From: a virus
Length of the DNA: 37,850 nt
IMG/VR virus record: IMGVR_UViG_3300032291_001527
Location: 1-37,850 of that record
Strand: one strand, 5' to 3'
In this document: one piece after another, positions 19,709-35,881 of the stretch
Numbering within the stretch: position 1 is the stretch's first letter
Layout of the letters: every line of letters begins with the position of its first letter
Translations under genes and position numbers: made by a program
The notes under the pieces: generated by a model
What the model saw: only the letters and a program-made list of their open reading frames with translations
Told to the model about the DNA's origin: nothing
Databases searched by the model: none

Positions 19709-19740
19709 GTAATATACGAAAATAATTTTACAATACCAAA
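19709..19740 (-). promoter_or_regulatory. Host-type promoter TTTGG-N19-TATATTAC
   Basis: On the minus strand TTTGG (19740-19736) is followed after exactly 19 bases by TATATTAC (19716-19709), then AAAT and the ATG. Box sequences and spacing fit the Bacteroidota pattern TTTG / TAnnTTTG. Four more copies occur in the window. The short distance implies a leaderless message. Confidence 0.75.
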
Positions 19741-21594: not shown

Positions 21595-22242
21595 TTAAAG
21601 TAGGTTATCTTGTCTTTCAATGATTGTAGACATATGGTCTGCCCAATGCATAATAAATTGTAACTTATAAACTAATTGTTTCTTTAAGTCGTGACCCGCT
21701 AAATACTTTTGATTATCTTCATCATACATACCATCGGTAAGTTTGATTGCGAAATACTCTTTCTCATTATACTGAATACCATAGTGGTTTAATGTAAAGA
21801 AAGTTCTATCGGTTAAGGTCATATATGGGATATTCTCATTACGAACAAATAAAGTTCCGTATTTCTTTTGAGACCATTCTTCCTGATTTGGTAAATAATG
21901 TAGTTCACCCTTAACACCCAATTTTCCTAAGTCGTGATGTAGACAACTAAATATCAACTCTTCTTCGGTGAAATCAATCTCTCCACCTTGCATTACGAAC
22001 AGGTCTCTCATTTTAAGAGCATTCTTACATACATTAAAGATGTGGTCTATATACCCACCTATATATGCGTTATGATAGTGTTTTGAGCCAGATGCGGCAG
22101 ATAGTGTAAGGTTAACACCCAATTCTTCTTCGGAATACATATGGAGTAATTTCTCCAATCTTTCTCCTATAAAATACTTCTTAATTATACCTATAAATCG
22201 GTCATAATTTGCTTTTAATTCTTGTTCTGTTTTTTGTTTCAT
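21595..22242 (-). CDS. HD-domain metal-dependent hydrolase (215 aa)
   Basis: The HD pattern is visible: first His near 67 (GGYIDHIFN), the HD pair H103-D104 in SCLHHDLGKLG, and a last Asp near 202 (MHWADHMS). Enzymes of this superfamily bind two metals and cleave phosphate esters of nucleotides or signalling nucleotides. The substrate cannot be told from sequence. Phages often use such enzymes to adjust nucleotide pools or remove alarmones. A host-type promoter (22271-22302) lies 29 bases upstream, leaving a short leader with no Shine-Dalgarno sequence. Confidence 0.85.
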   Translation of the reverse strand: MKQKTEQELKANYDRFIGIIKKYFIGERLEKLLHMYSEEELGVNLTLSAASGSKHYHNAYIGGYIDHIFNVCKNALKMRDLFVMQGGEIDFTEEELIFSCLHHDLGKLGVKGELHYLPNQEEWSQKKYGTLFVRNENIPYMTLTDRTFFTLNHYGIQYNEKEYFAIKLTDGMYDEDNQKYLAGHDLKKQLVYKLQFIMHWADHMSTIIERQDNLL

Positions 22243-22270: not shown

Positions 22271-22302
22271 CTAATATACGACAAATAATTGATATTGCCA
22301 AA
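22271..22302 (-). promoter_or_regulatory. Host-type promoter TTTGG-N19-TATATTAG
   Basis: On the minus strand TTTGG (22302-22298) and TATATTAG (22278-22271) are 19 bases apart, identical in layout to the four other copies. It begins two bases beyond the stop of the SGNH hydrolase gene and should drive the HD hydrolase with a leader of about 25 bases. Confidence 0.75.
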
Positions 22303-22303
22303 T

Positions 22304-22951
22304 TTATATTAAAGCTGGATTTATTAGTTTTTTATATAACATATCTGCAAAATCTTTATGTCCTTTGAATGAAAAATGATAATCTTTTATTTCATCTTTA
22401 GTTGCATCTGCTATTTTTTCAAATCTAGTTGTAGAGTGTATTAAAACTACACTCCAAATAAATGTAGTTGTTTTTTTATCTTTTAATAATTTATGTAAAA
22501 AATTAAATCTTTTTAAATGTCTTTTTTTATAAAGTTCATCATTAGCAAAATAATAATCAAAATTTATTAATGTTTCCATTTTTTCTTTTTCTAATTCATT
22601 AACATTTTTTAAATCTTCAAATTGCCAATGCATAGTTGATAATACCCTTTTTTTTAATAATTCATTTTCTATCGGAATATCAAATCTATTATAAAATGAA
22701 GTACCAATTATAACATAATCTTCTTCTTTAATGTTATTCCAATTATCAATTATCGAATCTATTATAAAATCATTACTTGCACCGCATTTACCAAAATTTT
22801 TAACTTTTGTATTTAACAATCCTCCTAAATGATTCGGCCAAATATCATCTCCTTCTTTTTTATAATTAAAATAATACTCACTTGTTGGGCCATCTGGTCT
22901 ACATCCATGTCCAAAAGTAAAACTATCTCCAAATGTCCAAAGTGTATTCAT
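22304..22951 (-). CDS. SGNH-type hydrolase, last gene of the glycan island (215 aa)
   Basis: The nucleophile block FGDSFTFG (Ser10), the GASND block (about 57-61) and a late D-x-H block with FKGH (about 190-198) fit the SGNH/GDSL hydrolase fold. These enzymes cut or transfer ester groups, often acetyl groups on sugars. I chose the ATG at 22951 (MNTLWTFGDS): the frame is open to 23035, but that would add 28 Ile/Lys-rich residues and overlap the previous gene by 80 bases, while 22951 lies 4 bases after its stop. It is adjacent to another SGNH gene. Substrate unknown; acyl editing of a glycan is an inference. Confidence 0.75.
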   Translation of the reverse strand: MNTLWTFGDSFTFGHGCRPDGPTSEYYFNYKKEGDDIWPNHLGGLLNTKVKNFGKCGASNDFIIDSIIDNWNNIKEEDYVIIGTSFYNRFDIPIENELLKKRVLSTMHWQFEDLKNVNELEKEKMETLINFDYYFANDELYKKRHLKRFNFLHKLLKDKKTTTFIWSVVLIHSTTRFEKIADATKDEIKDYHFSFKGHKDFADMLYKKLINPALI

Positions 22952-22955
22952 TAAA

Positions 22956-23714
22956 TTATATTTTTTTATGAATATAAAAATCATATAAATTTTTGGCATA
23001 TTTTTTGTGTTGTTCAGGTCCAGGATGAGAACCATCTAATCCCCAATCCAAATATGGGTAATAATTATAATAAAACTTATTATTATCTTCATAAAGAGTT
23101 TCTGATATAGAATCGTTCCAAATAAATGGAATATTTTTATTTTCTAAAAAATTTGTAATTAGTAAATGATTTTTATACCAATTTATATAATCTTCGTTAT
23201 CATTTTGTAACCTCGTTTTCAAATATTGAACTTCTGTCCCCGCACTGGTTTCTTGTAAAAATCCCCAGCTTTGTCCTGGAATAAAAGGTTCAATACCACC
23301 AGATTTTGTATAATATTCTGTTCTTGTTGGGTATGTATACATAATTAAAACTAAATCCGGTTTAATTAAATCAAAAAATGATAATAAACATCTTGTAATA
23401 AAATCATTACTTCTACCACTTACACCAAAATTTAAATTTACCGAATTGGGTATATATGAACAAAATTGACTCGGCCATGTTTCATCATCATTTACACCAA
23501 TACCTTCGGTAATCGAACATCCCAAAGAAACTACTTTAAATCCGTTTTTATGTATTGAATGTCCCCTAAAACCCAATTCATTATAAGTATATGTACATAA
23601 GCCGGTATTATCACTTCCCGATGTCTTATGTATTTTATTTTTTCTACTTTTCAAATGCCATTTATATGAAGATATTTCAAACTCTTCAACTGACCAATGT
23701 TTTAAAATTTTCAT
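22956..23714 (-). CDS. SGNH-type hydrolase (252 aa)
   Basis: The motifs are clear: VVSLGCSITEG with Ser67, GVSGRSND with Gly/Asn at about 100-103, and LDGSHPGPEQH with Asp227 and His230, giving a complete SGNH catalytic set. The N-terminal 60 residues precede the fold and may help bind substrate. There is no signal peptide, so it acts in the infected cell or on the virion, not by secretion. Together with the next gene it forms a tandem pair that looks related but diverged. Acetyl- or acyl-ester chemistry on a glycan is the likely role within this island. Confidence 0.8.
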   Translation of the reverse strand: MKILKHWSVEEFEISSYKWHLKSRKNKIHKTSGSDNTGLCTYTYNELGFRGHSIHKNGFKVVSLGCSITEGIGVNDDETWPSQFCSYIPNSVNLNFGVSGRSNDFITRCLLSFFDLIKPDLVLIMYTYPTRTEYYTKSGGIEPFIPGQSWGFLQETSAGTEVQYLKTRLQNDNEDYINWYKNHLLITNFLENKNIPFIWNDSISETLYEDNNKFYYNYYPYLDWGLDGSHPGPEQHKKYAKNLYDFYIHKKI

Positions 23715-23793
23715 AATAATATTTTATTTTGTATCATCTTCTATCGATTTTATAACACCATTTGCTATAATTTGATAACATACCTTTCATAAA

Positions 23794-24375
23794 TTATAAA
23801 AAACTTTTTTGTGTTTTTACTATGAATTCTTTATCACCCGATTGTATTTTGAAATCGTTTGGTTCAACCCAAATGTTTAATGATTTTCTAATTCCTTTGT
23901 GTACCGGCATCACACCATGCCAAATTGTGTGGCCGTTGAATGTCAATCCATTTCCTTGATTAATAGTATATAATGATTTCTCATCAACTATACTATTTTC
24001 TATTTTTACTTTATCTTCTGATAAAACAAATCTACCATCTTCAAAATCATTGGTTAAAACTATTACCGAAGTTAATTGAGTAGAAGTATCTCTATGCATT
24101 TCTAAAAATCTACCATCATAATATCTGGTTAGACTTAAATATATTTGATTTATGGTAAGAGTATTTAAATCAAATGGAACGGAGTCATCGTTTAAAAAAA
24201 CTTCTTTGTATCTTTTTAAAATTCGTTCTTTAAAGTTATCATCATATACTCGTAGGTTATCCCACTTATTATATGCATCTATTTTATGAAGAGTTTGCAA
24301 ACCGAATTTTTCACAAAATAACACAATTTCTTCACATTCTTCTTTTGAAAAGAAAAAATTGTTTTTTATTAACAT
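23794..24375 (-). CDS. 2-oxoglutarate/Fe(II) oxygenase, prolyl-hydroxylase-like (193 aa)
   Basis: The iron ligands are visible as MHRD (H94, D96) and H153 in TIWHGVMPV, with R163 placed to bind 2-oxoglutarate (KGIRKSLNIWV). The double-stranded helix fold is complete though compact. Such enzymes hydroxylate proteins, nucleobases or sugars. Phage members are common in marine T4-like phages, and targets are mostly unknown. A 79-base gap without a gene follows it. It is preceded by a probable 32-residue gene and the ATP-grasp/Hint gene. Confidence 0.85.
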   Translation of the reverse strand: MLIKNNFFFSKEECEEIVLFCEKFGLQTLHKIDAYNKWDNLRVYDDNFKERILKRYKEVFLNDDSVPFDLNTLTINQIYLSLTRYYDGRFLEMHRDTSTQLTSVIVLTNDFEDGRFVLSEDKVKIENSIVDEKSLYTINQGNGLTFNGHTIWHGVMPVHKGIRKSLNIWVEPNDFKIQSGDKEFIVKTQKSFL

Positions 24376-24384
24376 AAAATTATA

Positions 24385-24483
24385 TTATGCGTTTCTAATC
24401 AAATTCAATAAAACTAAAAAGATAGATTTACATTCTGCTCTTTGTTCTACTGAAAGTGTTACTATTTCTTGTGGTTGTGCCAT
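24385..24483 (-). CDS. Possible 32-residue protein
   Basis: An ATG at 24483, five bases after the stop of the ATP-grasp/Hint gene, opens a 32-codon frame (starts MAQPQEIVTLSVEQRAE, ends LLNLIRNA) that stops 9 bases before the oxygenase start. It fills an otherwise empty 113-base gap and ends in a short hydrophobic helix. It is too short for certainty. Confidence 0.45.
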   Translation of the reverse strand: MAQPQEIVTLSVEQRAECKSIFLVLLNLIRNA

Positions 24484-24488
24484 TGTGA

Positions 24489-25874
24489 TTAAGATTTATA
24501 ATTGTAAATAATGAAATTGTTTGCAATAGTATGTCCGATTCCGTTTGTATTAGTTCCTGAAATAAATACATCGGCTGGTTCAATGTTTAATTTTATAACA
24601 TCACCACTAAATTTTTCATATGCTATTGAAGTTACACTTGCTATAATAGTATTTGATACAACAATATAGTCACCACTTGTTAATTCACTTGCTGCTTTGA
24701 ATGTAAGATTATTACCATCCACATCACAAGTCAATACCAATTCAACTAAATTTACTAACATATAATTTGATGTACCTGCTATATCATAATTTACTTTGAT
24801 AAACCACTCATTAATTGTTTCATTCATTTTAACAACAACGGAAGCAGTTGTATATGTGATATCGGTATAAGAACCAGTATGTACCCAATCCATAGCTCCT
24901 TGAGTATTTGATGCATCATTTAATCCAGGTAAAGTTATAGCTTTTACAGTATCTCCTAATTCAATTTGACCCAATGTTACCGATACTTCTACACCATCTA
25001 CGATTTTTACTGTTTCGTATGTTGCGGGAATACCAACACCGGTTCTACTTGCATTTGAAAAGTATAAAATTCTACTATCATTTTCTAATACCGAACCACT
25101 ATAAGAAATATATTCCGAATTTAGTGGTAATGCATTTGCAGAAATATAACCACCAAAATCAATAGTTGTTGTTGCATCGGAACATAATATTAACCAATAT
25201 CTAATGTGGTCTCTGATTTTTCCATTGTACAAATTATTTGAATTGAATTGAAATTCCTGTGCAATCAAATCAATATCCATAGTTGCTTTTACATCCGATA
25301 CTTCCGCTTCTGTGGTTAAGTTATAAAATTTAGGAAAGTTTATTTTATCAAAATCAGGTAAACTTTTTTTAATTATTAAGTTTGGATGCGTTCCATTATC
25401 TATTAAATTTGATACATTATCAAATGTTGTACCATCTTTTTGAAAATAAGTTTTAGGAATTAAATTTGTTTGGTCATTGTTAAAAATTAAACTTAATAAT
25501 TCTTTTTTATCTCTACAATAAACATCATCTATTAAAGCGGTAATATCATAAGATATTCTTAATGTAAATTCATTATCCACATCTTCAAAAAATGGAATAG
25601 TGATAGAATCTATTGCAACGGTTACTTTTTCAAATATGATACCATTTGAATTACATATTGATTCCAATCTATTAATAAATTCAGTAGCGGTGTGTTCACT
25701 TTTATATATTATTCTAAATTTAGAAAATGAGTTTGTTGTTAAATAAGTTTCAAGTGCAGTAAAATCAAATGAATTATACGATATGTTTGGGATATACACA
25801 TCTGTATTTAATTCTAATAATTTCATTTGACCTTCCAGATTTAAAAAATCTATTCCTAATAATACCGATTTCAT
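24489..25874 (-). CDS. ATP-grasp-like protein fused to a C-terminal Hint (intein-like) domain
   Basis: Residues about 1-275 resemble an ATP-grasp ligase: VLLGIDFLNLEGQMKLLELN at 4-23, FTLRISYDITALIDDVYCRD at 103-122, the NLIIKKSLPD strand at 165-174 and QEFQF at 206-210. Residues about 280-461 look like a Hint domain: TLGQIELGDTVKAI, the FKAASELTSGDYIVV strand pair, and a final block VIKLNIEPADVFISG then IIYN. Hint domains cut or splice peptide bonds, but I do not see an obvious N-terminal catalytic Cys. Both assignments rest on patterns. A TATTTATA element lies 23 bases upstream, which may put it under late control, unlike its neighbours. Confidence 0.55.
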   Translation of the reverse strand: MKSVLLGIDFLNLEGQMKLLELNTDVYIPNISYNSFDFTALETYLTTNSFSKFRIIYKSEHTATEFINRLESICNSNGIIFEKVTVAIDSITIPFFEDVDNEFTLRISYDITALIDDVYCRDKKELLSLIFNNDQTNLIPKTYFQKDGTTFDNVSNLIDNGTHPNLIIKKSLPDFDKINFPKFYNLTTEAEVSDVKATMDIDLIAQEFQFNSNNLYNGKIRDHIRYWLILCSDATTTIDFGGYISANALPLNSEYISYSGSVLENDSRILYFSNASRTGVGIPATYETVKIVDGVEVSVTLGQIELGDTVKAITLPGLNDASNTQGAMDWVHTGSYTDITYTTASVVVKMNETINEWFIKVNYDIAGTSNYMLVNLVELVLTCDVDGNNLTFKAASELTSGDYIVVSNTIIASVTSIAYEKFSGDVIKLNIEPADVFISGTNTNGIGHTIANNFIIYNYKS

Positions 25875-25897
25875 ATTTTTTATTGTTTAATTTCTAT

Positions 25898-25905
25898 TAT
25901 AAATA
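25898..25905 (-). promoter_or_regulatory. Candidate late promoter element TATTTATA
   Basis: The 46-base gap before the ATP-grasp/Hint gene reads CAATATTTATAAT on the minus strand, ending 23 bases before the ATG. It follows a run of nine T on the plus strand. It has the same octamer as at 1142 and 6325. Confidence 0.35.
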
Positions 25906-25920
25906 TTGTTTTTTTTTAAA

Positions 25921-26694
25921 TTAATTGGATATTATATTTTTTATAAAATCATTATATAATTTTCGAATTGGTGGATGGCCTACGAAATGTAAAGCTTCTA
26001 TATTTTCCGATACATTATCATATGGGGTTGGAATTTGATATTTTTTTGTATTAAGTTTTATATATTGGCCGTTTTTGTAAAACATATGAGACCAGGCCGA
26101 CTGTTCAATCCAATCACCGTTTGTTATTCCTATTGTAAATAAATCGTTTAATGCAAATTCTATTGAATTAATGTTGTAATATTCTTTTGATGGAATATAA
26201 AATATACCAACATTCACATTATCTAAAACACTTGCCTTTGTATCCTTACAGAATGAATACGAATTTTGAAAATCAGGAAAATAAAAAGGTGTTGATTGAT
26301 TTATTAATTCAATAATATTTTTTGGTTCGGTTAAAAATAAAATATCACTATCAATACATAATATATTTTTATTGTTAGATAGAAAATAAAAATCAAATAA
26401 TTTCATCTTAGTATTATTAAATATTCTTATATTTTCAAATCTATATTTTGTACAACTTTTATATTCATTTATAAATTCTAAAATAGTATTGTCTGCATAA
26501 ATTTTATCAACTATGTAAGAGTTACCAATGTTCAATAAAATATTTTTACAATCATTATTCAAACTACCATCATCGTGAAAATATATTGGAATTTTTTTGA
26601 ATGCTTCATATCTCCTTAATGATTTTACCATATTCAATCCCATTTCAATATCACGTTTACAAATTAATATTCGTATTTCTAAATCATTAAACAT
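25921..26694 (-). CDS. GT-A fold glycosyltransferase (257 aa)
   Basis: The motif ILCIDSDILFL (D115-S-D117) is a classic DxD site for a metal-bound nucleotide sugar. It is preceded by the strand and helix order of GT-A enzymes (IYFHDDGSLNND near 37-48) and followed by NVGIFYIPS and a final ALHFVGHPP block, as in GT8-like enzymes. It has no membrane segment, so it is cytosolic. It starts one base after the stop of the GT25-like gene. The sugar and acceptor are unknown. Confidence 0.8.
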   Translation of the reverse strand: MFNDLEIRILICKRDIEMGLNMVKSLRRYEAFKKIPIYFHDDGSLNNDCKNILLNIGNSYIVDKIYADNTILEFINEYKSCTKYRFENIRIFNNTKMKLFDFYFLSNNKNILCIDSDILFLTEPKNIIELINQSTPFYFPDFQNSYSFCKDTKASVLDNVNVGIFYIPSKEYYNINSIEFALNDLFTIGITNGDWIEQSAWSHMFYKNGQYIKLNTKKYQIPTPYDNVSENIEALHFVGHPPIRKLYNDFIKNIISN

Positions 26695-26695
26695 A

Positions 26696-27301
26696 TTACA
26701 ACAATTTTTTCTTTTTATTGGTTATTTCAATTCTTTTATAACCATTTGGTGCTAAATTTGAAATAAACTTATTTTGAACTTGTATAAATGTTGGAGTTGG
26801 CAAGTATTTGAATTTTAAATGTTTTATTTTATGGAGCTCTAAATCATAAGCGTCTGTAATTTGTATAGAATTATAATGTAATAATAATTTTGCTGCAGAT
26901 TGCCAATTGACGGCATACGAATAACAATTCATTCCCAGTTCACCCAATTTAAAAACATCAAAAGTATCCCACTCAATACTATTCCAATCAAATGGAGTTA
27001 TATAATCCAAATCATCTTCAATTAAAATAATATTAGTTTTATTATCGGTAGACCATTTTAAAATATTCATATGTGAAATGAATGTTGCCATCACCGCATC
27101 TTGAATTACATCCCATTCGTGGAAGTTTACATATTTAAAGTATCTATGTTTAATTTCATCCGTAATCTCATCAGGTTTTGTTGCATTCCAAAATTCAAAA
27201 TCTAAACCAATTTTATCTTTTAGAGATAACATCCATTCTCTTCTATCTCTATTGGATTCTAATGATAGACACCAAAATTTATATGATTGATTTTTTAACA
27301 T
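26696..27301 (-). CDS. GT25-family glycosyltransferase (201 aa)
   Basis: The start SYKFWCLSLESNRDRREWML and the acidic site LIEDDLDY (E95, D96, D97) are typical of family 25 glycosyltransferases, which add galactose or similar sugars to lipooligosaccharide (bacteria) or collagen (animals). The middle VMATFISHMNILKWS also fits the family's conserved Ser/His helix. At 201 residues it is near the lower size for the family. It overlaps the end of the preceding 427-residue gene by 23 bases. Role: sugar addition in the island's glycan. Confidence 0.85.
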   Translation of the reverse strand: MLKNQSYKFWCLSLESNRDRREWMLSLKDKIGLDFEFWNATKPDEITDEIKHRYFKYVNFHEWDVIQDAVMATFISHMNILKWSTDNKTNIILIEDDLDYITPFDWNSIEWDTFDVFKLGELGMNCYSYAVNWQSAAKLLLHYNSIQITDAYDLELHKIKHLKFKYLPTPTFIQVQNKFISNLAPNGYKRIEITNKKKKLL

Positions 27302-28562
27302 TTTTAATATCTGTTTTAATATGCGAATAAAATTTAATCAATTCACTGTTATCCAATATTTGATTATAATTATGGATTAAAATTTCTTTCATTTCGTTTC
27401 GTATCAATGTACATTTTTCTAAATCCCAACTTGCTATTTCTTCTAATATTTTTGTTATTTTATTCATTCTTATTTCAAAATCAATTTCATTATCATAATT
27501 TTCATCCCACCATTTATCAAAAGTTTTAAATCCATATTCTTTTAATTTTTTAAGAGAATGAGTATTACCAACAATTATAAATGGTTGACAAGTATAAATA
27601 GATTTGTATGTTTTTTCGGTTATAAATACCACATCTTGTGTTGTTAGTGTTTCTGTTATTACATTTACAAAAGTTTTTAAATGTGCTTCAATGTTTATAC
27701 TATCACCAGTTTGAACATCTTTTACCCAATTCGTAGTATCATATGAATAACCATTTATTGAATTGTAATTTTTATAATATTCAATCATTTCTTTATGATT
27801 TGTTGAATTTACAATATCAAATAAAGATTTATCCGTTGTATTTTTATTAAGAGACAAAATTGATTTATTTTTTAATTTTATATTATTGGTTAATTCATAA
27901 AACATCCACAATCTATGCAACTTTGTTAAATTATTAAAACATAAAAAATGTTTTTTTATATTGAAATTATTTATAAAATAATAATATTTGTTTTTAAATG
28001 ATTTAATACTTAATGTATCTCGTTTATTAATTAATGCAAAAAATAACTCATCACTAAAATAATTGTAAGATAGTATTGTAAATTTGTTTCTTTTATAATT
28101 TTCTTCTGCTAATAAATTTGAAGTAATCATTATTAAGTCATCTGGTTCTAAATTATATTTTGTTACTAAATTATCCAACCAATTGCAATGTGATATATTT
28201 TCACCAAACCACCCTTCCGTTATATAGAAAAAAACTATTTTAGCTTTTTTATTTTTTATAGATTGTAGTAATATATCACTTAAGTTAATCGTTGATTGTT
28301 TTTCAAATAAGTCATTACTATATAAAACAATTGGATATATAAATTTTTTTTCTGAATTTGAAAAATATTCAGTTGTATTTTTATTAAATGTGTGAAATTG
28401 ATTTCCCAAAAAATTATCAATATGCAACCAATGTAAGTATCTTTTAGGATGAACATTCTCTCCCATTAACCAGTTGGGGCTATACTCATATTCTGATAAA
28501 TTTGGTTTGGTAATATCATCATATGCTACACTAACTATAATATCGGTAATAAAGTTTGTCAT
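27279..28562 (-). CDS. Probable glycosyltransferase of the ITEKT type, paralogue A (427 aa)
   Basis: Recognisable segments are LCFNNLTKLHRLWMFYEL (about 207-224, with the His-Arg pair), VVFITEKTYK (311-320), PFIIVGN (327-333) and GFKTFDKWWDENYD (344-357). This set occurs in a family of poorly studied phage and marine bacterial proteins that I take to be GT-B-like glycosyltransferases, because the EKT/PFII segment resembles the donor site of GT10-type enzymes. The gene starting at 31243 shares the same segments, so the two are paralogues. No membrane segment. The enzyme class is an inference. Confidence 0.6.
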   Translation of the reverse strand: MTNFITDIIVSVAYDDITKPNLSEYEYSPNWLMGENVHPKRYLHWLHIDNFLGNQFHTFNKNTTEYFSNSEKKFIYPIVLYSNDLFEKQSTINLSDILLQSIKNKKAKIVFFYITEGWFGENISHCNWLDNLVTKYNLEPDDLIMITSNLLAEENYKRNKFTILSYNYFSDELFFALINKRDTLSIKSFKNKYYYFINNFNIKKHFLCFNNLTKLHRLWMFYELTNNIKLKNKSILSLNKNTTDKSLFDIVNSTNHKEMIEYYKNYNSINGYSYDTTNWVKDVQTGDSINIEAHLKTFVNVITETLTTQDVVFITEKTYKSIYTCQPFIIVGNTHSLKKLKEYGFKTFDKWWDENYDNEIDFEIRMNKITKILEEIASWDLEKCTLIRNEMKEILIHNYNQILDNSELIKFYSHIKTDIKNVKKSII

Positions 28563-29146
28563 TAAAAATATTTTCTGATTCCAACTTTTTTTGATAACAT
28601 ATGCCCCTCTAATTCTCTATCCGTTAATTTTGACAAATCAAAAATGCCTGTTAGTGTTTGCAATTGAGTATTTAAAAAACCAAATCGTTCCATATGTTCT
28701 TCTAATGGAAATTTTGCACTATTAAAATTATTTCTTCCTAAAAAATATCCACCATTTATTATATTTTTTGCACTCCATTGTTGTGCGTGCAATTTTGCCA
28801 ATGGTGTTAATTCAAAATTACCAATATCATTGTAACAAAATGCGATGGGATATTCTTCATTTAATTCTAAAACATTTAATACTCTTACATTTGGATGATT
28901 TGTTGGATTGGCTATATCATACCCAATACATCTATCATACCCAAAATGTTTACATAATAAATCAAAACTTACACAATTATTTGTTCCCAATACAACAACA
29001 TAACCAGCATTGGGAATGTCAGTTATTTTACATACAATTTCTTTGAACATAACATATGCCCAATAATTTTCGTCATATGCATCTATGCCATGATTTTGTA
29101 ATTCATTAAACCAAAAATCTTCTGAGTAATAACTTTTTTCTTTCAT
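28562..29146 (-). CDS. Methyltransferase-like Rossmann protein (194 aa)
   Basis: The stretch YVVVLGTNNCVSFDLLCKHF (about 49-68) followed by RCIGYDIANP resembles the first two motifs of SAM-dependent methyltransferases, with Asp at the end of strand 2. Later motifs are less clear: IAFCYNDIGNF could be motif IV. The protein is short and lacks an obvious C-terminal sheet, so it may be degenerate or bind something other than SAM. It overlaps the next gene's start by one base. In this island a sugar O-methyltransferase would be sensible, but this is uncertain. Confidence 0.45.
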   Translation of the reverse strand: MKEKSYYSEDFWFNELQNHGIDAYDENYWAYVMFKEIVCKITDIPNAGYVVVLGTNNCVSFDLLCKHFGYDRCIGYDIANPTNHPNVRVLNVLELNEEYPIAFCYNDIGNFELTPLAKLHAQQWSAKNIINGGYFLGRNNFNSAKFPLEEHMERFGFLNTQLQTLTGIFDLSKLTDRELEGHMLSKKVGIRKYF

Positions 29147-29150
29147 AATT

Positions 29151-29387
29151 TTATAGATTTTCTACTTTATTCCATTTTTTTAAATCACAACTACCCATAA
29201 CCGGTGTGAATATTTTTTTACCCAATGGACAACCACATTCACCACATACTTCCGTAAATACGATAGATGATTGTTTGGATGGGCAAGTTTGACAAATCGT
29301 ATATCTTTTAGTGGCCAGTATCGTTTGTTGTGGTGTAGGATTTGCAGCTCTCCTCCAACTTAAGAATATTTCGGATGCCTTATTCAT
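29151..29387 (-). CDS. Cysteine-rich zinc-ribbon-type small protein (78 aa)
   Basis: Six cysteines are spaced as C32-x2-C35, C48-x2-C51-x-C53 and C67 (YTICQTCPSK, then VCGECGCPLGKK and GSCDLKKW), an arrangement expected to bind one zinc ion in a ribbon. The N-terminus is a Trp/Arg/Ala helix. Proteins of this kind are frequent in phages that encode glycan enzymes, but I know no defined function. It overlaps the aminotransferase gene by 8 bases, so the two are probably made together and might interact. Confidence 0.8.
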   Translation of the reverse strand: MNKASEIFLSWRRAANPTPQQTILATKRYTICQTCPSKQSSIVFTEVCGECGCPLGKKIFTPVMGSCDLKKWNKVENL

Positions 29388-30000
29388 ATTTTGAAAATAT
29401 TGATTGTTTTGTTAAATCTTTATAAGTTTCATAAGAACCACAATCTTCATTAAAATCTTTTATTTTAGTATTAAAAATATTAATTCCAATTTGAGCATCT
29501 TCTGGTGTCATATACATATGGTATCCTATACATTCTAATTCATCTTGATTATACATTTTATCAATATGTCTACCATCATATATCATCGGCCTGGCCCAAC
29601 TTACAAAGTTTTTATCATTTGTTAATATCATACCACCTTTACCTATGTTAAGTATCTTTCTATGATGAAATGAAAGTATTTGATAAGTATCATCCATATA
29701 CATTCTTTTCCTAAATCTACATGCTGAATCTACTACTGGTAAAGGAAATAATAAATATTCACCACTCCAATTCATATCAACAAATTTAGGAATATTACCA
29801 CTATGGATAATTTGCATTGGAACCGACGCATATGTATGTTTTGGAATTTCTATTTCTCTGTCTTTTACTTTAAGATATTCTAATACCAATTTGATTGCAT
29901 TTGAATTACTATCACATGCTACTGCATACTTTGAACCACAATACTTTGCAATAATGTTTTCAAACTCCAATACTTTATCCCAATCGTTATTTAATTTCAT
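29380..30000 (-). CDS. Shortened DegT/DnrJ/EryC1-type aminotransferase (206 aa)
   Basis: The sequence follows the large-domain pattern of DegT sugar aminotransferases: an N-terminal KYAVACDSNSNAIKLVLEYL, a PKHTYASVPMQI strand and SFHHRKILNIGKGGMILTND, where K115 is in the position of the PLP-binding lysine. Full members are about 370-400 residues; this one ends near 206, soon after the PLP region, so most of the small domain is absent. It might still bind PLP or form a dimer with an outside partner, or be a non-catalytic regulator. Its usual reaction is transfer of an amino group to a keto-sugar nucleotide. Confidence 0.75.
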   Translation of the reverse strand: MKLNNDWDKVLEFENIIAKYCGSKYAVACDSNSNAIKLVLEYLKVKDREIEIPKHTYASVPMQIIHSGNIPKFVDMNWSGEYLLFPLPVVDSACRFRKRMYMDDTYQILSFHHRKILNIGKGGMILTNDKNFVSWARPMIYDGRHIDKMYNQDELECIGYHMYMTPEDAQIGINIFNTKIKDFNEDCGSYETYKDLTKQSIFSKYE

Positions 30001-30001
30001 A

Positions 30002-31243
30002 TTATATATTTAAAATATATTGTTTAAAAACTTCTTCATAATTATTATTTTTAATAAAATTATGATTATGAATTAGTTTATCTACATTATTTTTGTAATA
30101 AATAGAAATTTCTTCTTTCATAGTTGATAATCTTTTAATTTCATTTACTACCATATGAAATCTTTTAACATCATCTATTTCGTCATCATAACTATGGTCA
30201 ATTAAATCATCGAAGAAATAAAAATCATATTCTTCTCTCATTAGTTTTACATGGTTGTATTCTGCTAAGAAGAGTGGTAATTGAAAAAAATGAAATGGTT
30301 TAAAGCTTTTTTCTGTTATATGTACACTATTTTCTCTAAAATGATAATGTGATTCGGTTACTATGTTAATATAACTATTTTCAAAGTTTAATTCACTTTT
30401 AAAAGTATTAGTCGGGTTTTCATAATTATATGTATCTAATGTATTTTTCCAATTTATATCTTCTTTATAAAAACATAGTTTTTTAACATTAGATATAAAT
30501 TTATAAATTTCTATTAATTTTTTATCATTCAAATCTAAATATTTTTTAAAATGTAATAGAGATACTATGTTCGGTGAATTTAAATAAAATAATGCATAGT
30601 CATTGTAATTTACTATCAAAGACCAATTTGTTATATCGTTTTCTAATAAATTCAAATATTTTAAATATGTTAATAATAATATTCTATGATAATGTGGTTG
30701 TCTATTTTGACATAAAAAAATAAACTTTTTATTTAATTTTATATTTTCTATACTTGGTGGATTTGGATTTTTACTATAAAATTGGATTAAATAATTTGCT
30801 TTAAAAACATTTATATTTGTTTTTAACATATATTTTAATTCATATAACATAGAATTATTATCTATGATACAAAAATTTGATTCGTTCCAATTGTTCTTTT
30901 TTATTTTTTTAATCAATAAAGACATAAAAGTGTCGATATACTTATGACTTTCGTGTTCACATAAAAAAATTATTTTTAAATCAAAATTTTTTATATAATA
31001 TTCTATTTCTTTTGGTAAAAAAATTTCTCCACCTTGAATATACAATTGATACGAATAATTGATGGAAACTATAAAATAAAAATTTTCAAGATGGTTTATA
31101 TCTTCCAATTTACATTTTTGTATATTAAAACTAGCATCATTAAGAAAAAATGGAAATAGAAAAGTGCTATACTCAGTATTTAACTCTGATAAATTTGGTA
31201 GGGGATTTCCATTGTCATCCCATCTATTAAAAACTAAATTCAT
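30002..31243 (-). CDS. Probable glycosyltransferase of the ITEKT type, paralogue B (413 aa)
   Basis: The same segments as in the 427-residue protein are seen: FIFLCQNRQPHYHRILLLTY (about 174-193, with a His-Arg pair), NIVTESHYHF then VHITEKSFKPFHFFQLPLFL, and a DFYFFDDLIDHSYDDE acidic block. The N-terminal 170 residues are Lys/Asn-rich and diverged from the paralogue. The likely role is a soluble GT-B-like glycosyltransferase. It ends one base before the aminotransferase start and begins one base after the DUF6734-like gene. Function by family resemblance only. Confidence 0.6.
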   Translation of the reverse strand: MNLVFNRWDDNGNPLPNLSELNTEYSTFLFPFFLNDASFNIQKCKLEDINHLENFYFIVSINYSYQLYIQGGEIFLPKEIEYYIKNFDLKIIFLCEHESHKYIDTFMSLLIKKIKKNNWNESNFCIIDNNSMLYELKYMLKTNINVFKANYLIQFYSKNPNPPSIENIKLNKKFIFLCQNRQPHYHRILLLTYLKYLNLLENDITNWSLIVNYNDYALFYLNSPNIVSLLHFKKYLDLNDKKLIEIYKFISNVKKLCFYKEDINWKNTLDTYNYENPTNTFKSELNFENSYINIVTESHYHFRENSVHITEKSFKPFHFFQLPLFLAEYNHVKLMREEYDFYFFDDLIDHSYDDEIDDVKRFHMVVNEIKRLSTMKEEISIYYKNNVDKLIHNHNFIKNNNYEEVFKQYILNI

Positions 31244-31244
31244 A

Positions 31245-32195
31245 TTAAATTAATTTTTTACTTTTTGTATTTTTAATATTCAAAATGGAATTTATTTTTT
31301 GATAAAGTTCTGGATACATTTTTTCAATAACATTAATTAATAATTCATCCATGCCGGCAACTTTTTTACTAATCCATAAATGGTGACCTTGATTTTCTTG
31401 CATATATTTTGATAAAGATTTTTTTATATCAATATCTTTCATTCTAAAATTTGTAATATTTGAAAATTCTTTCATCTCATATATTCTTAAATATCCCCCA
31501 TCTCCCTTTATTAAAACATTTTCATATTCGTTTAACTCTTTAATCTTAAACCCATTCTCTAAAAAGAATTGAGCAGATAAATATTGTTCTATTGCCCAAT
31601 GTGGTGGTGCTTCGGTAGAATATGTATTAACTATACTTTTAATATTTTGTTGAGTATATTCATCCAATCTTTTGAAATATTCAGTAATAGATTTATGATA
31701 AATTGCCGGAACACCGAACACACATACATTCATTGCATAGTTTTCGTTTATAATATTAAAACCAAATTTATTATAGTTTAGTTTTAATTTATCTATTAAA
31801 CTACTATATCCTAAGTTAAATTGATTCTCACCACACTTCTCTCTGGTTTCGGAATAACCACAAATAATTTCATTTTCTAATTTTATTTTATTAAACAAAA
31901 AATAATCTATATCAAAGTGTATATATTCTTCTTCTACATTTGAATATGTAAATAGTTTTGATAAAGTTCCATAACCATTTTCTACTAAAATATTGTTTGG
32001 TAATATTCGTATTTCATTGTAATAAGAATTTGATAATGTTAATGCAGTTTTTTCATCACAATATAATATAACTCTATCATATTGTTTCTTTAACAAATAT
32101 GATGATAGCAATGCCATTATTAATTGTAATCTTATTGAAGATGTATCATTACTATTATAATATTTATGTAAATTTAATGTTTGAACGGCTAGCAT
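31245..32195 (-). CDS. DUF6734-like GT-A glycosyltransferase (316 aa)
   Basis: The site YIHFDIDYFLF (D95-x-D97) is a DxD motif, after a GYGTLSKLFTYS helix, as in the DUF6734 group of GT-A fold proteins. The later APPHWAIEQYLSAQFF segment (about 195-210) fits the acceptor-side helix of these proteins. Metal and nucleotide-sugar binding are therefore likely. It is soluble. It follows the oxygenase gene by 6 bases. The sugar is unknown. Confidence 0.75.
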   Translation of the reverse strand: MLAVQTLNLHKYYNSNDTSSIRLQLIMALLSSYLLKKQYDRVILYCDEKTALTLSNSYYNEIRILPNNILVENGYGTLSKLFTYSNVEEEYIHFDIDYFLFNKIKLENEIICGYSETREKCGENQFNLGYSSLIDKLKLNYNKFGFNIINENYAMNVCVFGVPAIYHKSITEYFKRLDEYTQQNIKSIVNTYSTEAPPHWAIEQYLSAQFFLENGFKIKELNEYENVLIKGDGGYLRIYEMKEFSNITNFRMKDIDIKKSLSKYMQENQGHHLWISKKVAGMDELLINVIEKMYPELYQKINSILNIKNTKSKKLI

Positions 32196-32201
32196 TTACT
32201 T

Positions 32202-32894
32202 TTATTTTTTGTCTATGGCTTTTTCACCATCAAACCAATATAAACTTCTATGTGGGTTTTCATTGGTAGAATTTGATGTATAATAAAATAGTCTAAATCC
32301 ATCTCTATATTCACCATCTGGACAATCAATTGGGTTTGGATGTCCATGAAATCCTGATTCATCGTATTCCCATATTACGGCGTTGCCCCAATCAGGAAAA
32401 TAACTTTTAACACATTCTTTATTTTCTTTATCCCACAATTGAATATCACCATTCCATTTTTTTTGCCAACCTTTATTAAGATATATCACTAAGGTTAAAA
32501 CTCTATTTAATTTTATATCGTCATTCCAGTTAAAGTCGGTGTGCACCTTTAAACTATCACCATTCCCACACCTCATATATCCGGCACCATGCATATGAAT
32601 ATCGGGTATTAGGCCGGTAATGTTTGTTATTTCTTCTAACCATCTGACAAATTCAGTTGAATGTAAATAAGAAACTAAATTATATGCTATTGGTGTATCT
32701 TTTTGATTATACTTATACCACTCATGCATTGCCGAACCATTTCTATTAAAGAATTTAAATTCGTCTTTACGATAGTCAAATAAACCATTTAATTCTTCTT
32801 TTAATTTAGAAGTAATTTCATAATCTATAAACTTATCAAATACCCAATGGTTTAACGGGTCGCTTTCTTTATTGTATAATTTATTTATCTTCAT
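32202..32894 (-). CDS. 2-oxoglutarate/Fe(II) oxygenase, prolyl-4-hydroxylase-like (230 aa)
   Basis: The iron site is KVHTDFNW (H118, D120) and a distal His in ESGFHGHPNPI (about 183), with R201 in DGFRLFYYT for 2-oxoglutarate. All four ligands are present. The HTDFNW variant is common in phage and marine oxygenases of the P4H group. It is the first gene after a host-type promoter whose -7 box ends 6 bases before the ATG, so its message is nearly leaderless. It heads the run of sugar enzymes, which suggests the hydroxylated product is part of, or attached to, the glycan. The substrate is not known. Confidence 0.88.
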   Translation of the reverse strand: MKINKLYNKESDPLNHWVFDKFIDYEITSKLKEELNGLFDYRKDEFKFFNRNGSAMHEWYKYNQKDTPIAYNLVSYLHSTEFVRWLEEITNITGLIPDIHMHGAGYMRCGNGDSLKVHTDFNWNDDIKLNRVLTLVIYLNKGWQKKWNGDIQLWDKENKECVKSYFPDWGNAVIWEYDESGFHGHPNPIDCPDGEYRDGFRLFYYTSNSTNENPHRSLYWFDGEKAIDKK

Positions 32895-32900
32895 CTATTA

Positions 32901-32932
32901 CGAATATACGAATAATTCCTAATACTACCAAA
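32901..32932 (-). promoter_or_regulatory. Host-type promoter TTTGG-N19-TATATTCG
   Basis: On the minus strand TTTGG (32932-32928) and TATATTCG (32908-32901) are 19 bases apart, followed by TAATAG and the ATG of the oxygenase. It probably drives the glycan island as one long transcript. The -7 box differs from the other copies at its last two positions. Confidence 0.72.
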
Positions 32933-32947
32933 TTTATAATATGGGTG

Positions 32948-33103
32948 TTATTTATCGTTTCTATACCATCTCCTTCTCTCTACATACCAAAATGGAAACT
33001 TACACACCCAATAGATAATAAGACCACAGGCAGCAATCAAAAGCAATGGGGAAAGGATTATTAGGGTTGTTATGTTTGATATTAACTTAGTGAGAGATAC
33101 CAT
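32948..33103 (-). CDS. Small membrane protein (51 aa)
   Basis: Residues about 13-35 (TLIILSPLLLIAACGLIIYW) form one membrane segment, followed by a basic-aromatic end (WYVERRRWYRNDK) that would sit in the cytoplasm. The frame is open up to an ATG at 33133, but the ATG at 33103 overlaps the previous gene by only 17 bases instead of 47, so I prefer it. No family recognised. It ends 15 bases before the island promoter. Confidence 0.65.
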   Translation of the reverse strand: MVSLTKLISNITTLIILSPLLLIAACGLIIYWVCKFPFWYVERRRWYRNDK

Positions 33104-33359
33104 TTCCGTAAATTGATGTGTAAATACCGACAATACCGACTAACATCCAAAATATGTTTAAAATCAAGTATGCTCTATTACTTCTCTCCCATGCGGCATA
33201 AGTAAGAATTATAGCATCGATTGTATTCCATATCCACATATAAAGGAAAGGAGTATCAGGTCCCATAATAGAAAGAGTACCAAATGCAATGATTCTCATC
33301 ACTACTCCAATGTTCTCTAATAATTTTACCCAGTTTTCTTTTAATAACTTTAGTTTCAT
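33087..33359 (-). CDS. Small multi-pass membrane protein (90 aa)
   Basis: Two or three membrane segments: about 14-32, 35-57 (PFLYMWIWNTIDAIILTYAA) and 63-82 (YLILNIFWMLVGIVGIYTSI). The layout, with a GPDTPF turn and two Trp-rich helices, is like small membrane proteins I have seen in phage and marine sequences, roughly SemiSWEET-like in topology, but no function can be assigned. It is 3 bases after the sulfotransferase and overlaps the next small membrane gene, so the two could form one membrane complex. Confidence 0.7.
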   Translation of the reverse strand: MKLKLLKENWVKLLENIGVVMRIIAFGTLSIMGPDTPFLYMWIWNTIDAIILTYAAWERSNRAYLILNIFWMLVGIVGIYTSIYGNGISH

Positions 33360-33362
33360 AAT

Positions 33363-34079
33363 TTATATTAAACTTTTTTTAATCGGAGTAATTTTCCAGT
33401 ATTTAATTTTACATTCTTCTAATTCAGGTATCTGTTCTTCTAATTCATACATTTTACATATTTCTCCATCAATCATAAGTTTATAAAATTTATTAGCTTT
33501 AGGTAATTCTTTAATTACTTCACACCATAGTTCTGGTAAGTTAGTTTCAATCCATTTTGATAATTCTTGTTTGGTTATAGATGAATATTTAAAGTTTTCT
33601 CCTTGTGCAGAAATACCATAACTAAGTTTATCATGAATAGTATCAATATTATATCTTTCTTTTAAAAAAGGAGATAAGTTTGATATGTGAACAATTTTTA
33701 TTAAATCTCTATTACCTTTCCAAAATTTATATAGATATTCATAATAATTTATATCCCAATGGGTAGTACCATATTGATTATCATCGGTATTTATAAAATT
33801 TTTAATTAATGGAGTTACTATATCAATTGATAATGATTCTGAGGGGTTTGATAAATACCAGGAAAATATCTCAGTATGTATAGCAGATTGCAGATGTTCT
33901 AAAGGTTCTCTGATTATAATTGTTGATATAATTTTCATATCATATCCTTTATTATTTAGTTCTGCATAATTTATTCGATAGTCGGCCATTAGAATATCAT
34001 TTGGAAATACTTTTTCCAAATAAGTAGTACCACATTTATGCGGTGTTAATATTTCATTATTAAATACTTTAAATTGCAT
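33363..34079 (-). CDS. PAPS-dependent sulfotransferase-like protein (238 aa)
   Basis: The 5'-phosphosulfate loop is seen as TPHKCGTTYLEKVFP (residues 12-26; usual form TPKSGTTxL), and the 3'-phosphate site as IIIREPLEHLQSAIHTE (R57, S65 in the RxP...S pattern). Both binding elements of sulfotransferases are present, so it probably uses PAPS to sulfate a hydroxyl or amine. The His in the loop is unusual. It is 5 bases after the radical SAM gene. The natural acceptor in this setting would be a sugar, but a small metabolite is possible. I see no gene for making PAPS in this window, so host PAPS would be needed. Confidence 0.75.
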   Translation of the reverse strand: MQFKVFNNEILTPHKCGTTYLEKVFPNDILMADYRINYAELNNKGYDMKIISTIIIREPLEHLQSAIHTEIFSWYLSNPSESLSIDIVTPLIKNFINTDDNQYGTTHWDINYYEYLYKFWKGNRDLIKIVHISNLSPFLKERYNIDTIHDKLSYGISAQGENFKYSSITKQELSKWIETNLPELWCEVIKELPKANKFYKLMIDGEICKMYELEEQIPELEECKIKYWKITPIKKSLI

Positions 34080-34084
34080 TTATA

Positions 34085-35845
34085 TTATAATGTTAATTCT
34101 CTTAATTCAGGAAATTGTGAAAAGAATTCATCTTCTTGTTTTTTTCTTATTGCCAGTTGTTCTTTATTTCTTTTAGCAATAAGTTCATCTTTAAGTTCCA
34201 AATATAAACCTCTATTGTATATGGAGTAAGGTATACCAATTTCCTTAAATAACTTTTCCGCGCGTTCAAGTCTATCTAATCTATCTAATGGAGTATTCCA
34301 CTTTGTTGAAAAGTTAACACCATTAATGTATTCAATCCATTCCTTCTCTTCATCTCTCCATCGAACTAATAGAGGTTGGTGTATTAGGAATGCTGAACAT
34401 GTAAGTATTTCTGCCATACAATCGTGGTATTCCTCAACAAAGTCTAATGTCCTTTGAAAATCATCTTCACCTTCGTTTAAATATCCAACGATTAATTGCA
34501 TTGCAAATTGTAGGGGGTCTTTGTTTTCCGTATTGATTTGTCTTACATTTTCAAATATTTCCCTTACACCATCCATTTTAGTATATTTCTTCATATGTTC
34601 CAAAACAGGTTCGGAAGCAGATTCAAATCCAGTAATCATTTTTCTTAAACCCGCTTTACGATATAATCTCATAGTGTCTAAATCTCTCATTGCAGGTTGA
34701 AGTCTCATATTACCACCCCATGTGATATTCAATTCTTTTTTAATCAATTCTTCACAAAATTCTTTTAACCAACGAGGACTACCATTGATAATACTATCGT
34801 GACAAAAGAAATTAGTATTACCTTTGTTAACCCAATATTCAATTTCTTGTATTACGGTTTCTACTTTTCTATAACGAAACTCAGGTATAAAATCTGGTAC
34901 TGAACAAAAGGAACATCTATAAGGACATCCTCTGCTCATAACCAATGGTACATTATATTGGTAAGTAGATTTATAATAGTAATTATCTTCCAATGATGAA
35001 TAGTCGGGGAAAGGTAAAGAATCCATATCAATATTAGGTCTTGTCTTATTATGGATGAATACACCATTACAATTCCAAACTAATCCCTTTATGTTCATCA
35101 AAGACGATTCACTCCAATCGGACTTAAGTATTTCTACCAATGTCATCTCTCCATCACCTCTACTAAACGCATCGATGAAAGTATATTCATTTGTTTTATA
35201 AGATGAATTGGGTAATTTACCAAAGTCTAATACTTCTATACCATTACCACCCATTAGTATTTTAATGTGAGGATACTTTTGTTTTATCAATCGTGCAATA
35301 GCAAGTGTTGCGTCTACATTACCATCGATAACACTAAACCCTAAAAAAGCAGGTTTTGCTTTCTCAATGTATCTACCAACAAAACCATAAGCAATGTCGA
35401 ATATCTCTTTGTATTTATATAGTATATCGTATTCACCTTGACGAGAGTAAGTATTAAATAAATTAAAGAAATCGCTTCCCTTATCAGGAGGGTTTAAAAA
35501 GAAATAATCTATAACAGGGTCTATGATAGCAACTCTTAAATCGGAATGAAACTTATCTATATAAGACTTTAATCCTACTATGCCTGAATAATAACCTGAT
35601 TCATTGATATTAGGTACTTGCATCAATAAACAATCTTGTTCTTCTATATCTTCAAAATGAAATTTATGTTCTATTGCTATCTTAGAATGACGAACTCTCT
35701 CCGTTTGTCTCATATATTGTAGCAAATCGACTTTAACATCAAATACTTCCTTACCTGATTGGATTTGTTCACTAACCCTATTATCGGACTTAATGATTTG
35801 TTCTTGTTCGGTAGGTGTTATGAAATTGTCTAATGTGGTACTCAT
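34085..35845 (-). CDS. B12-binding-domain radical SAM enzyme (586 aa)
   Basis: The cluster motif SRGCPYRCSFC places the three cysteines at 307, 311 and 314. Before it, residues about 70-250 form a B12-binding-like Rossmann domain (AFLGFSVIDGNVDATLAIAR near 166-185; HIKILMGGNGIEV). After it is the TIM-barrel with EXXXXX-type elements and ITGFESASEPVLEHMKKYT. Such enzymes methylate or rearrange unreactive carbons. I start at the ATG at 35845: the frame also opens from a TTG at 35860, but that codon lies against the -7 box of the promoter (35850-35857), upstream of the probable transcription start. The substrate is unknown. Confidence 0.88.
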   Translation of the reverse strand: MSTTLDNFITPTEQEQIIKSDNRVSEQIQSGKEVFDVKVDLLQYMRQTERVRHSKIAIEHKFHFEDIEEQDCLLMQVPNINESGYYSGIVGLKSYIDKFHSDLRVAIIDPVIDYFFLNPPDKGSDFFNLFNTYSRQGEYDILYKYKEIFDIAYGFVGRYIEKAKPAFLGFSVIDGNVDATLAIARLIKQKYPHIKILMGGNGIEVLDFGKLPNSSYKTNEYTFIDAFSRGDGEMTLVEILKSDWSESSLMNIKGLVWNCNGVFIHNKTRPNIDMDSLPFPDYSSLEDNYYYKSTYQYNVPLVMSRGCPYRCSFCSVPDFIPEFRYRKVETVIQEIEYWVNKGNTNFFCHDSIINGSPRWLKEFCEELIKKELNITWGGNMRLQPAMRDLDTMRLYRKAGLRKMITGFESASEPVLEHMKKYTKMDGVREIFENVRQINTENKDPLQFAMQLIVGYLNEGEDDFQRTLDFVEEYHDCMAEILTCSAFLIHQPLLVRWRDEEKEWIEYINGVNFSTKWNTPLDRLDRLERAEKLFKEIGIPYSIYNRGLYLELKDELIAKRNKEQLAIRKKQEDEFFSQFPELRELTL

Positions 35846-35849
35846 GGGT

Positions 35850-35881
35850 TTAATATACAAATAATTATTGAATTTACCAAA
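35850..35881 (-). promoter_or_regulatory. Host-type promoter TTTGG-N19-TATATTAA that fixes the radical SAM start
   Basis: On the minus strand TTTGG (35881-35877) and TATATTAA (35857-35850) are 19 bases apart, followed by ACCC and the ATG at 35845. Transcription would start at or just before the ATG, giving a leaderless message. Confidence 0.75.

Follow-up and report, generated by a model that had tools for sequence, protein, structure and literature searches.

A hypervariable locus of predicted tailoring enzymes in T4-like aquatic phages, with a common C-terminal tag centred on an ATP-grasp/Hint protein

IMG/VR record IMGVR_UViG_3300032291_001527 is a linear virus contig of 37.85 kb (the window, meaning the whole stretch of 37,850 nucleotides), and positions 22304 to 34079 of it hold a closely packed island of putative glycosyltransferases, oxygenases, hydrolases and other tailoring enzymes. 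The question raised by this locus is what unites so mixed a set of genes. An initial annotation had proposed that they could build a short sugar chain and add sulfate, acyl and hydroxyl groups, which is not the best description of the region: the near-constant member of the locus is a protein with predicted ATP-grasp and Hint domains, here called c1, and the enzymes that accompany it are united by a short C-terminal tag. The region is one version of a hypervariable tailoring locus in T4-like aquatic phages.

The variability becomes apparent when the locus is compared between its fixed flanks. The HD-like gene (21595-22242) and gp55 served as anchors to gather 155 loci from IMG/VR, and a search with the c1 alignment added 80 further loci from 261 confirmed stretches; single-protein pattern scans with the ITEKT-type protein and with the sulfotransferase of the island returned no relatives. 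The left flank comprises the genes at 37404-37598, 37077-37403, 35963-37114, 33087-33359 and sometimes 34085-35860. Between it and the HD-like gene, relatives differ in almost all of their genes, with HD proteins up to 100% identical. Among 24 loci whose HD protein is at least 95% identical, the mean fraction of shared island proteins is 4% at a threshold of at least 80% identity, and 250 of the 276 pairs have no island protein in common at that level. c1 is nonetheless present in 36 of the 48 compared sources (the window counted), and a small protein, c2, in 35 of them. Its recurrence across dozens of relatives takes the locus beyond chance.

Sister loci hold mostly 2-oxoglutarate (2OG) oxygenases, sulfotransferase-like proteins, SGNH hydrolases, radical S-adenosylmethionine (SAM) enzymes and Trp-halogenases at this position, and the window version is richer in glycosyltransferases than its relatives. 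In loci without c1 in the compared stretch (L020, L048, L055), the same site is occupied mostly by untagged proteins that look by eye like glycosyltransferases, some with a LamG-like extension, together with one protein resembling UDP-glucose dehydrogenase, likewise assigned by eye.

The tag was first noticed among representative C-termini such as -KKEKTLF, -KKEKSLI, -ISKKLI and -TNKII. Its consensus is -K-K-[K/S/T]-[L/I]-[I/L]-COOH, and it is found on enzymes that have no common ancestry. A loose pattern, [KRTNSQ][LIVMF][LIVMF] at the C-terminus, fits 172 of 244 distinct island proteins as against 31 of 418 proteins encoded downstream of the HD gene in the same loci (70% versus 7%), and 3.4% of internal positions in island proteins. 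When a preceding Lys is also demanded (the strict form), the corresponding values are 55%, 4.1% and 0.8%. A position profile was also built for each family from the remaining families; by it, the true C-terminus outranks every other position of the protein in 394 of 622 cases. Twenty families of at least four members are mainly tagged and 48 clusters contain at least one strictly tagged member, while the conserved-flank and structural families are essentially untagged. Near c1 the tagged families include 2OG-Fe(II) oxygenases (the largest group), sulfotransferase-like P-loop proteins, SGNH hydrolases, Trp-halogenases (PF04820, E 3e-84 and 1.5e-93), radical SAM and SET proteins. Contig G005 illustrates the arrangement: two 2OG oxygenases, a halogenase, two further 2OG oxygenases, a sulfotransferase-like protein and c2 precede a c1 with a Cys-rich tail, and an SGNH hydrolase, a 2OG oxygenase, a sulfotransferase-like protein, a radical SAM enzyme and a P-loop protein follow it, these functions being assigned partly by eye from the protein starts.

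The distribution of the tag is centred on c1. Within 1.5 kb, 81% of the proteins encoded directly upstream and 70% of those directly downstream carry it, and downstream of c1 the frequency drops to 0-14% beyond about 7.5 kb. On two long contigs the tag is confined in the same manner, with 7 of 15 proteins tagged near c1 versus 8 of 131 elsewhere in G003, and 13 of 20 versus 13 of 195 in G005. Two loci that lack c1 and have a complete left flank are nearly untagged (one of six proteins in L048, one of five in L055); two others, L020 and L089, resemble them in having few tags, but their stretches possibly end before c1. Four loci (L021, L037, L057 and L077) are tag-rich with no c1 in the compared stretch, which in each case ends close to the island. 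Homologous enzymes of phages HTVC008M, P-SSM2 and S-SRM01 are untagged, save for one borderline P-SSM2 end. c1 itself does not carry the tag, given that 1 of 79 homologues fits the loose pattern.

Several features place the signal in the protein. The codons of the tag are freely synonymous (Ser as AGT, TCA, TCT, TCC and TCG; Leu as TTA, TTG, CTA, CTT and CTG), three stop codons are used by the tagged genes, and the bases 3′ of the stop are not conserved. Given this variation, the tag is selected at the protein level. In c2 it is a separable add-on, since tagged c2 orthologues extend past the point at which untagged orthologues end. Near c1, 58 of 59 c2 homologues are tagged, and the c2 of the window is not.

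In the window, five island proteins have tag scores of 4.9 to 11.2, four clearly (those starting at 26696, 33363, 31245 and 27279) and one moderately (23794), and every other window protein scores at most 3.3. The members of the island are as follows.

33363-34079, minus strand: sulfotransferase-like protein by cluster membership; C-terminus -PIKKSLI, tag score 11.0
32202-32894, minus strand: 2OG-Fe(II) oxygenase (PF13640, E 1.7e-14), untagged, tag score -7.2
31245-32195, minus strand: DUF6734 protein (E 1e-8), probably GT-A-like; C-terminus -TKSKKLI, tag score 10.1
30002-31243, minus strand: ITEKS-type glycosyltransferase-like protein, untagged; clusters with 27279
29380-30000, minus strand: short DegT/DnrJ aminotransferase-like protein of 206 aa, untagged; PF01041, E 2e-21 in two stretches
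29151-29387, minus strand: c2, 78 aa, with conserved Cys in the alignment and probably zinc-binding; near-constant in relatives, untagged here
28562-29146, minus strand: methyltransferase-like protein by eye, no family match, untagged
27279-28562, minus strand: ITEKT-type glycosyltransferase-like protein by clustering; C-terminus -NVKKSII, tag score 8.3
26696-27301, minus strand: GT25 glycosyltransferase (PF01755, E 1.3e-7); C-terminus -TNKKKKLL, tag score 11.2
25921-26694, minus strand: putative GT-A protein with a DSD motif, by eye, no family match, untagged
24489-25874, minus strand: c1, 461 aa, with predicted ATP-grasp (aa 1-277) and Hint (aa 278-458) domains and the tail YKS, from AlphaFold2, fold matches and homologues; proposed hub or precursor
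23794-24375, minus strand: 2OG-Fe(II) oxygenase (PF13640, E 1.8e-8); C-terminus -KTQKSFL, tag score 4.9, the best position of the protein
22956-23714, minus strand: SGNH hydrolase-like protein (PF13472, E 0.003), cluster c3
22304-23035, minus strand: SGNH hydrolase-like protein, cluster c3; likely true start at 22951 (MNTLWTFGDSF), with the same start context in relatives

The protein at the centre of this distribution has homologues in over 100 IMG/VR loci. When cultured phages were searched with c1 by tblastn, the ATP-grasp part gave no matches and all hits fell in the Hint domain; a single scan of 84,980 bacterial and archaeal genomes with an alignment of closer c1 homologues found no relative. 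AlphaFold2 models the whole protein with a mean predicted local distance difference test (pLDDT) score of 81.7, and residues 1-277 with a pLDDT of 93.8 and a predicted template modelling score of 0.88. Foldseek matches this N-terminal domain to YjfC, YgiC, glutathione synthetase and glutathionylspermidine synthetase (E 9e-7 to 5e-4), and VIA aligns it with the same proteins at Z 8.0-9.3 over 205-236 residues (4.4-5.4 Å, 10-15% identity). The best 25 VIA matches are all of the glutathione synthetase, glutathionylspermidine synthetase (GspS) and trypanothione synthetase class, with Z 7.0-9.3, a Z of about 9 being moderate. The c1 domain aligns end to end with the eukaryotic glutathione synthetase, GspS and YgiC/YjfC, residues 1-276 of the model lying on 310-608 of 2ioa, so that the whole domain is covered in permuted order. 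The non-permuted ATP-grasp enzymes TTL, RimK and LysX align with c1 from about residue 51 only, which fits a circular permutation.

Conservation is consistent with this assignment. D9, E21, N23, R106, D116, Y119, P164, K169 and R225 are invariant in all 81 homologues, and among them D9, E21, N23, K169 and R225 are the retained Mg/ATP-binding residues. By the alignment offset, D9, E21 and N23 correspond to D318, E330 and N332 of GspS. Residues 1-277 of c1 are thus modelled as a circularly permuted ATP-grasp domain of the glutathione synthetase/GspS class. The domain differs from known permuted ligases of this kind in its 277-aa size, its lack of a meaningful Pfam match (among 60 c1 members, no family matches more than one), its fusion to a Hint domain and its occurrence in phages.

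The second domain of c1, residues 278-458, resembles the bacterial intein-like (BIL) domain 2lwy (VIA Z 16.5, 2.0 Å over 136 residues), as well as hedgehog and inteins, and a profile search connects it to the KlbA intein (E 2e-6). Its last residue, Asn, is retained in 81 of 81 homologues and the preceding His in 79. c1 therefore has the HINT fold and the invariant terminal Asn in common with BIL and Hint domains, but it differs from them in that the fold is placed between an ATP-grasp domain and a short variable peptide, and in lacking the conserved N-terminal Cys, which was not found in columns 276-291 of the 81 homologues. Since there is no such Cys, c1 is not considered a splicing intein. 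Class 2 (KlbA-like) splicing was rejected as well, in that the +1 residue is not conserved and cleavage is expected instead. By established Hint and intein chemistry, the remaining residues would allow C-terminal cleavage through Asn cyclisation.

What lies beyond the Asn diverges faster than either domain. In most members this tail is 25-45 residues long and rich in Cys, Trp and Tyr, with six to nine Cys (for example SCWCPWNYCGHWCNSNYCPTC) and a Cys at tail position +2 in 71 of 81 homologues. Many of the Cys-rich tails in L176-L240 end in -K-[L/I/V]-COOH, which is similar to the enzyme tag yet distinct from it. Other variants extend further. In the S74 clade about 90 Cys-rich residues are followed by an S74-like chaperone domain (a sub-threshold Pfam match) with an SDxxxK motif; such ends occur in L030, L032, L062, L064, L069 and L102, the Cys-rich stretch of about 90 residues being present in most of these. 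A structural or tail-fibre role for c1, as suggested by the S74-like ends, is not favoured, given the tailoring enzymes encoded next to it and the invariance of its ATP-grasp residues. In L164, L166, L169, L078, L083 and L109, a second, canonical Hint domain with an N-terminal Cys follows the first, and the two autoprocessing domains are separated by short segments such as KCTWSGFC.

The reading that we favour, at somewhat less than even odds (a probability of about 0.45), is that the tag recruits interchangeable tailoring enzymes to c1 or to its product. The tag would behave as an exchangeable plug that brings the phage's own enzymes to one hub, most likely the ATP-grasp domain of c1 or a product bound to c1, such that newly acquired enzymes act on a common substrate. 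When one short peptide recurs on enzymes of dozens of unrelated kinds, and does so around a single gene, this clearly points to a common machine, and recruitment of this kind would explain how tailoring enzymes could be freely exchanged and still work together. Several observations weigh against it. The adjacency of c1 and the tag could also arise if the two act for some third partner or for a host factor. Upstream of c1, ends that fit the loose pattern stay at about 20% at distances of 4.5-10 kb. The tag pattern and profile were built after the motif had been seen, a bias that leaving out one family at a time limits and does not remove. Tag composition shows no clear co-variation with c1 clade. 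Finally, about half of the island enzymes in the window (25921, 28562, 29380, 30002 and 32202) are untagged; its c1 has Tyr in place of the penultimate His, the Hint domain ending in Tyr-Asn; and in its clade the tails are mostly of three to six residues and not Cys-rich, that of the window being YKS.

A more specific form of the recruitment reading can be offered tentatively, namely that these phages possess a modular system for peptide tailoring in which c1 carries and self-releases a hypervariable, often Cys/Trp/Tyr-rich peptide, a rotating set of tagged enzymes (hydroxylases, halogenase, radical SAM enzymes, sulfotransferases, glycosyltransferases, SET and other methyltransferases) plugs in through the tag, and each phage obtains a chemically modified peptide of its own. 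In a c1 with a Cys- and aromatic-rich tail, Asn cyclisation by the Hint domain would release the tail as a modified peptide, by a route reminiscent of ribosomally synthesized and post-translationally modified peptides (RiPPs), and the ATP-grasp domain may form an amide at a C-terminal, possibly peptide, carboxylate. The window makes the weakest case for such a peptide, having no more than YKS as a tail and Tyr in place of the penultimate His. Its three-residue tail and many glycosyltransferases make a Cys-rich peptide less probable as the product than a small peptide or glycan that is glycosylated and sulfated.

The strongest competitor, which we nevertheless consider unlikely, is an ordinary island for glycan synthesis or virion decoration, where the enzymes assemble and trim a glycan carried by virion proteins or the host surface, with c1 as an unrelated structural or regulatory passenger and the tag as a side feature. 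The richness of the window in glycosyltransferases agrees with it, as do the frequency of such genes in T4-like phages and the glycosyltransferase-like occupants of the site in relatives without c1 (assigned by eye). It fits poorly with c1 recurring in most loci amid a changing set of enzymes, and with a tag that centres on c1 and spans enzymes not bound to sugar, such as the halogenase, radical SAM and SET proteins. Nor were genes for nucleotide-sugar synthesis or assembly recognised in the window with Pfam, PHROGs and NCBIfam, apart from the truncated DegT protein, on a contig that is a fragment and could lack them. As for phage DNA hypermodification, no gene for hydroxymethyl-nucleotide synthesis that could feed DNA glycosyltransferases was seen in the 37.8 kb of this incomplete genome, for which no dedicated test was made.

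It is distinctly less probable that the tag directs localisation or packaging, taking the enzymes into the virion or an infection compartment, with c1 as further cargo or as a loading factor. Short terminal peptides held in common often serve as loading or sorting signals, and the tag does sit on otherwise unrelated enzymes; however, c1 itself is untagged, and the tag is limited genome-wide to one locus, where a general signal might mark other proteins too. Doubtful to a similar or greater degree is the proposal that the tag is a ligation substrate, its carboxylate being activated by the ATP-grasp domain so that the enzymes become covalently coupled to the product of c1 or to another amine. 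The fold class lends itself to this, given that GspS, RimK and TTL act on C-terminal carboxylates, and so do the invariant ATP-grasp residues and a tag that stands strictly at the C-terminus; many tagged partners for each c1 would be unusual for a ligase. Very unlikely, in our estimation, is a degron, for example for ClpXP, that makes the enzymes short-lived. Its C-terminal chemistry would be similar, the MuA-type ClpXP signal RRKKAI being likewise basic and then hydrophobic, but a degron need not centre on c1, nor be missing from the homologous enzymes of other phages. Lastly, rapid turnover of the island cassettes might suggest that the tag arose as a side effect of a DNA linker for recombination that sits at the ends of genes and aids cassette exchange, an origin rejected on the free codon use, the three stop codons and the unconserved bases that follow them.

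Recruitment around c1 can also be set against systems already described. In cyanophages, clusters of 8-12 genes encode a halogenase, 2OGFeDO, a carbamoyltransferase and methylases, and are predicted to yield a halogenated secondary metabolite or a capsule decoration (PMC7824862). This is the closest described system: a halogenase, 2OG oxygenases and methyltransferases likewise occur together in T4-like aquatic phages, a carbamoyltransferase is also found in the window (15823-17520), and the difference is that neither an ATP-grasp/Hint hub nor a common C-terminal tag is described in the part consulted (PMC7824862). The likeness to RiPP clusters lies in the hypervariable Cys/Trp/Tyr-rich segment at the end of a leader-like protein in most c1 relatives, and in the halogenase, radical SAM, 2OG, sulfotransferase-like and SET enzymes around it. 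Here, however, the "leader" is a ligase of about 460 aa with a predicted self-cleaving domain, the enzymes are tagged at their C-termini, no transporter or immunity gene was recognised, and the tail in the window has three residues. A search of the open-access literature found no report of a phage system with an ATP-grasp/Hint protein or a common C-terminal tag in such a cluster, and the locus is called new because these two features are without a described counterpart there. As to its enzymes, the locus is thus of a familiar type, and the tag and the c1 hub appear to be new, as known here from sequence and predicted fold.

If c1 does release modified peptides, a natural-product pathway of a new class would exist in T4-like aquatic phages. 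Failing that, the tag still provides a computational handle for finding members of the system and for pairing orphan phage oxygenases, halogenases and sulfotransferases with partners, and it may also serve the building of modular enzyme recruitment.

The gene inventory of the initial annotation stands in its coordinates, its co-directional packing and most of its enzyme classes, and passes over c1, c2 and the tag. Its spacing of 0-6 bases between nearly all genes is borne out in part: from 34085 down to 25921 the genes are closely joined (gaps of 1-6 nt or overlaps of 1-23 nt) except for 192 nt before 33087, and c1 and the 23794 gene are set off by gaps of 46, 113 and 79 nt. Both oxygenases belong to the 2OG-Fe(II) family, and the two ITEKT-type proteins (30002 and 27279) fall in one cluster. 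Three GT-A glycosyltransferases had been listed; one is recognisable as GT25, and the GT-A label of 31245 and 25921 relies on DID and DSD motifs picked out by eye. The DegT-like aminotransferase has its family match in a truncated protein from which a central stretch and the C-terminal domain are missing, with the catalytic SFHxxK lysine present. The paired SGNH hydrolases receive a weak match for 22956, and 22304 is supported by clustering with it. For the sulfotransferase 33363 there is no Pfam match, and the assignment comes from grouping with a sulfotransferase-like cluster of relatives; another such cluster matches Sulfotransfer_2 at E 6e-4. The methyltransferase 28562 is an assignment by eye. 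As a candidate for an undescribed system, the region was well chosen.

Promoter-like elements of the form TTTGGNA-N15-NGTATATT occur four times in the window versus 0.04 expected, for a pattern derived from those same sites. Each is directly upstream of a gene, three of them very close to start codons.

35852-35881, minus strand: promoter-like element before 34085/33363
32903-32932, minus strand: promoter-like element before the main island unit
22273-22302, minus strand: promoter-like element between the island and the HD gene, conserved in relatives
19711-19740, minus strand: promoter-like element, fourth copy of the TTTGGNA-N15 pattern

The elements probably split the island into two transcription units, which end at the HD gene. 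Three copies are present in L013, and none was found in L251. Their form recalls the -33/-7 promoters of Bacteroidota, and so fits the kinship of the window with a Flavobacterium phage.

That kinship is evident in the structural half of the contig, which encodes baseplate wedge gp6 and gp25 (PHROG), a gp55-like sigma factor and others. In agreement with the placement of the island in a T4-like phage, these genes show synteny with Microcystis phage Mel-JY01, Flavobacterium phage immuto and a 484 kb uncultured phage, their proteins being about 24-45% identical; in the stretches compared, none of the three has a counterpart of the island. A megablast of the window against cultured phages gave no matches, none of the island proteins tested is close to any cultured phage, and one island oxygenase has 31% matches in marine single-cell viruses. 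The remaining flanking features are these.

34085-35860, minus strand: B12-binding radical SAM protein of the left flank, start probably an ATG near 35845; in some relatives only
33087-33359, minus strand: conserved flank protein of 90 aa, up to 90% identity in relatives
21595-22242, minus strand: HD-like phosphohydrolase (phrog_28876, E 1e-7), the conserved right flank and anchor

The nearest models to the radical SAM protein are of the BchE type (E 5e-39). Between the structural genes, the protein at 15823-17520 is a Nol/NodU-like carbamoyltransferase (phrog_1601, E 2.6e-117), and proteins similar to it lie near c1 in contigs G003 and G005. The c1-bearing relative L258 (G005:160001-180000) also encodes a transfer-messenger RNA, whose tag peptide is ATSNVAVA, and 25 tRNAs in one block.

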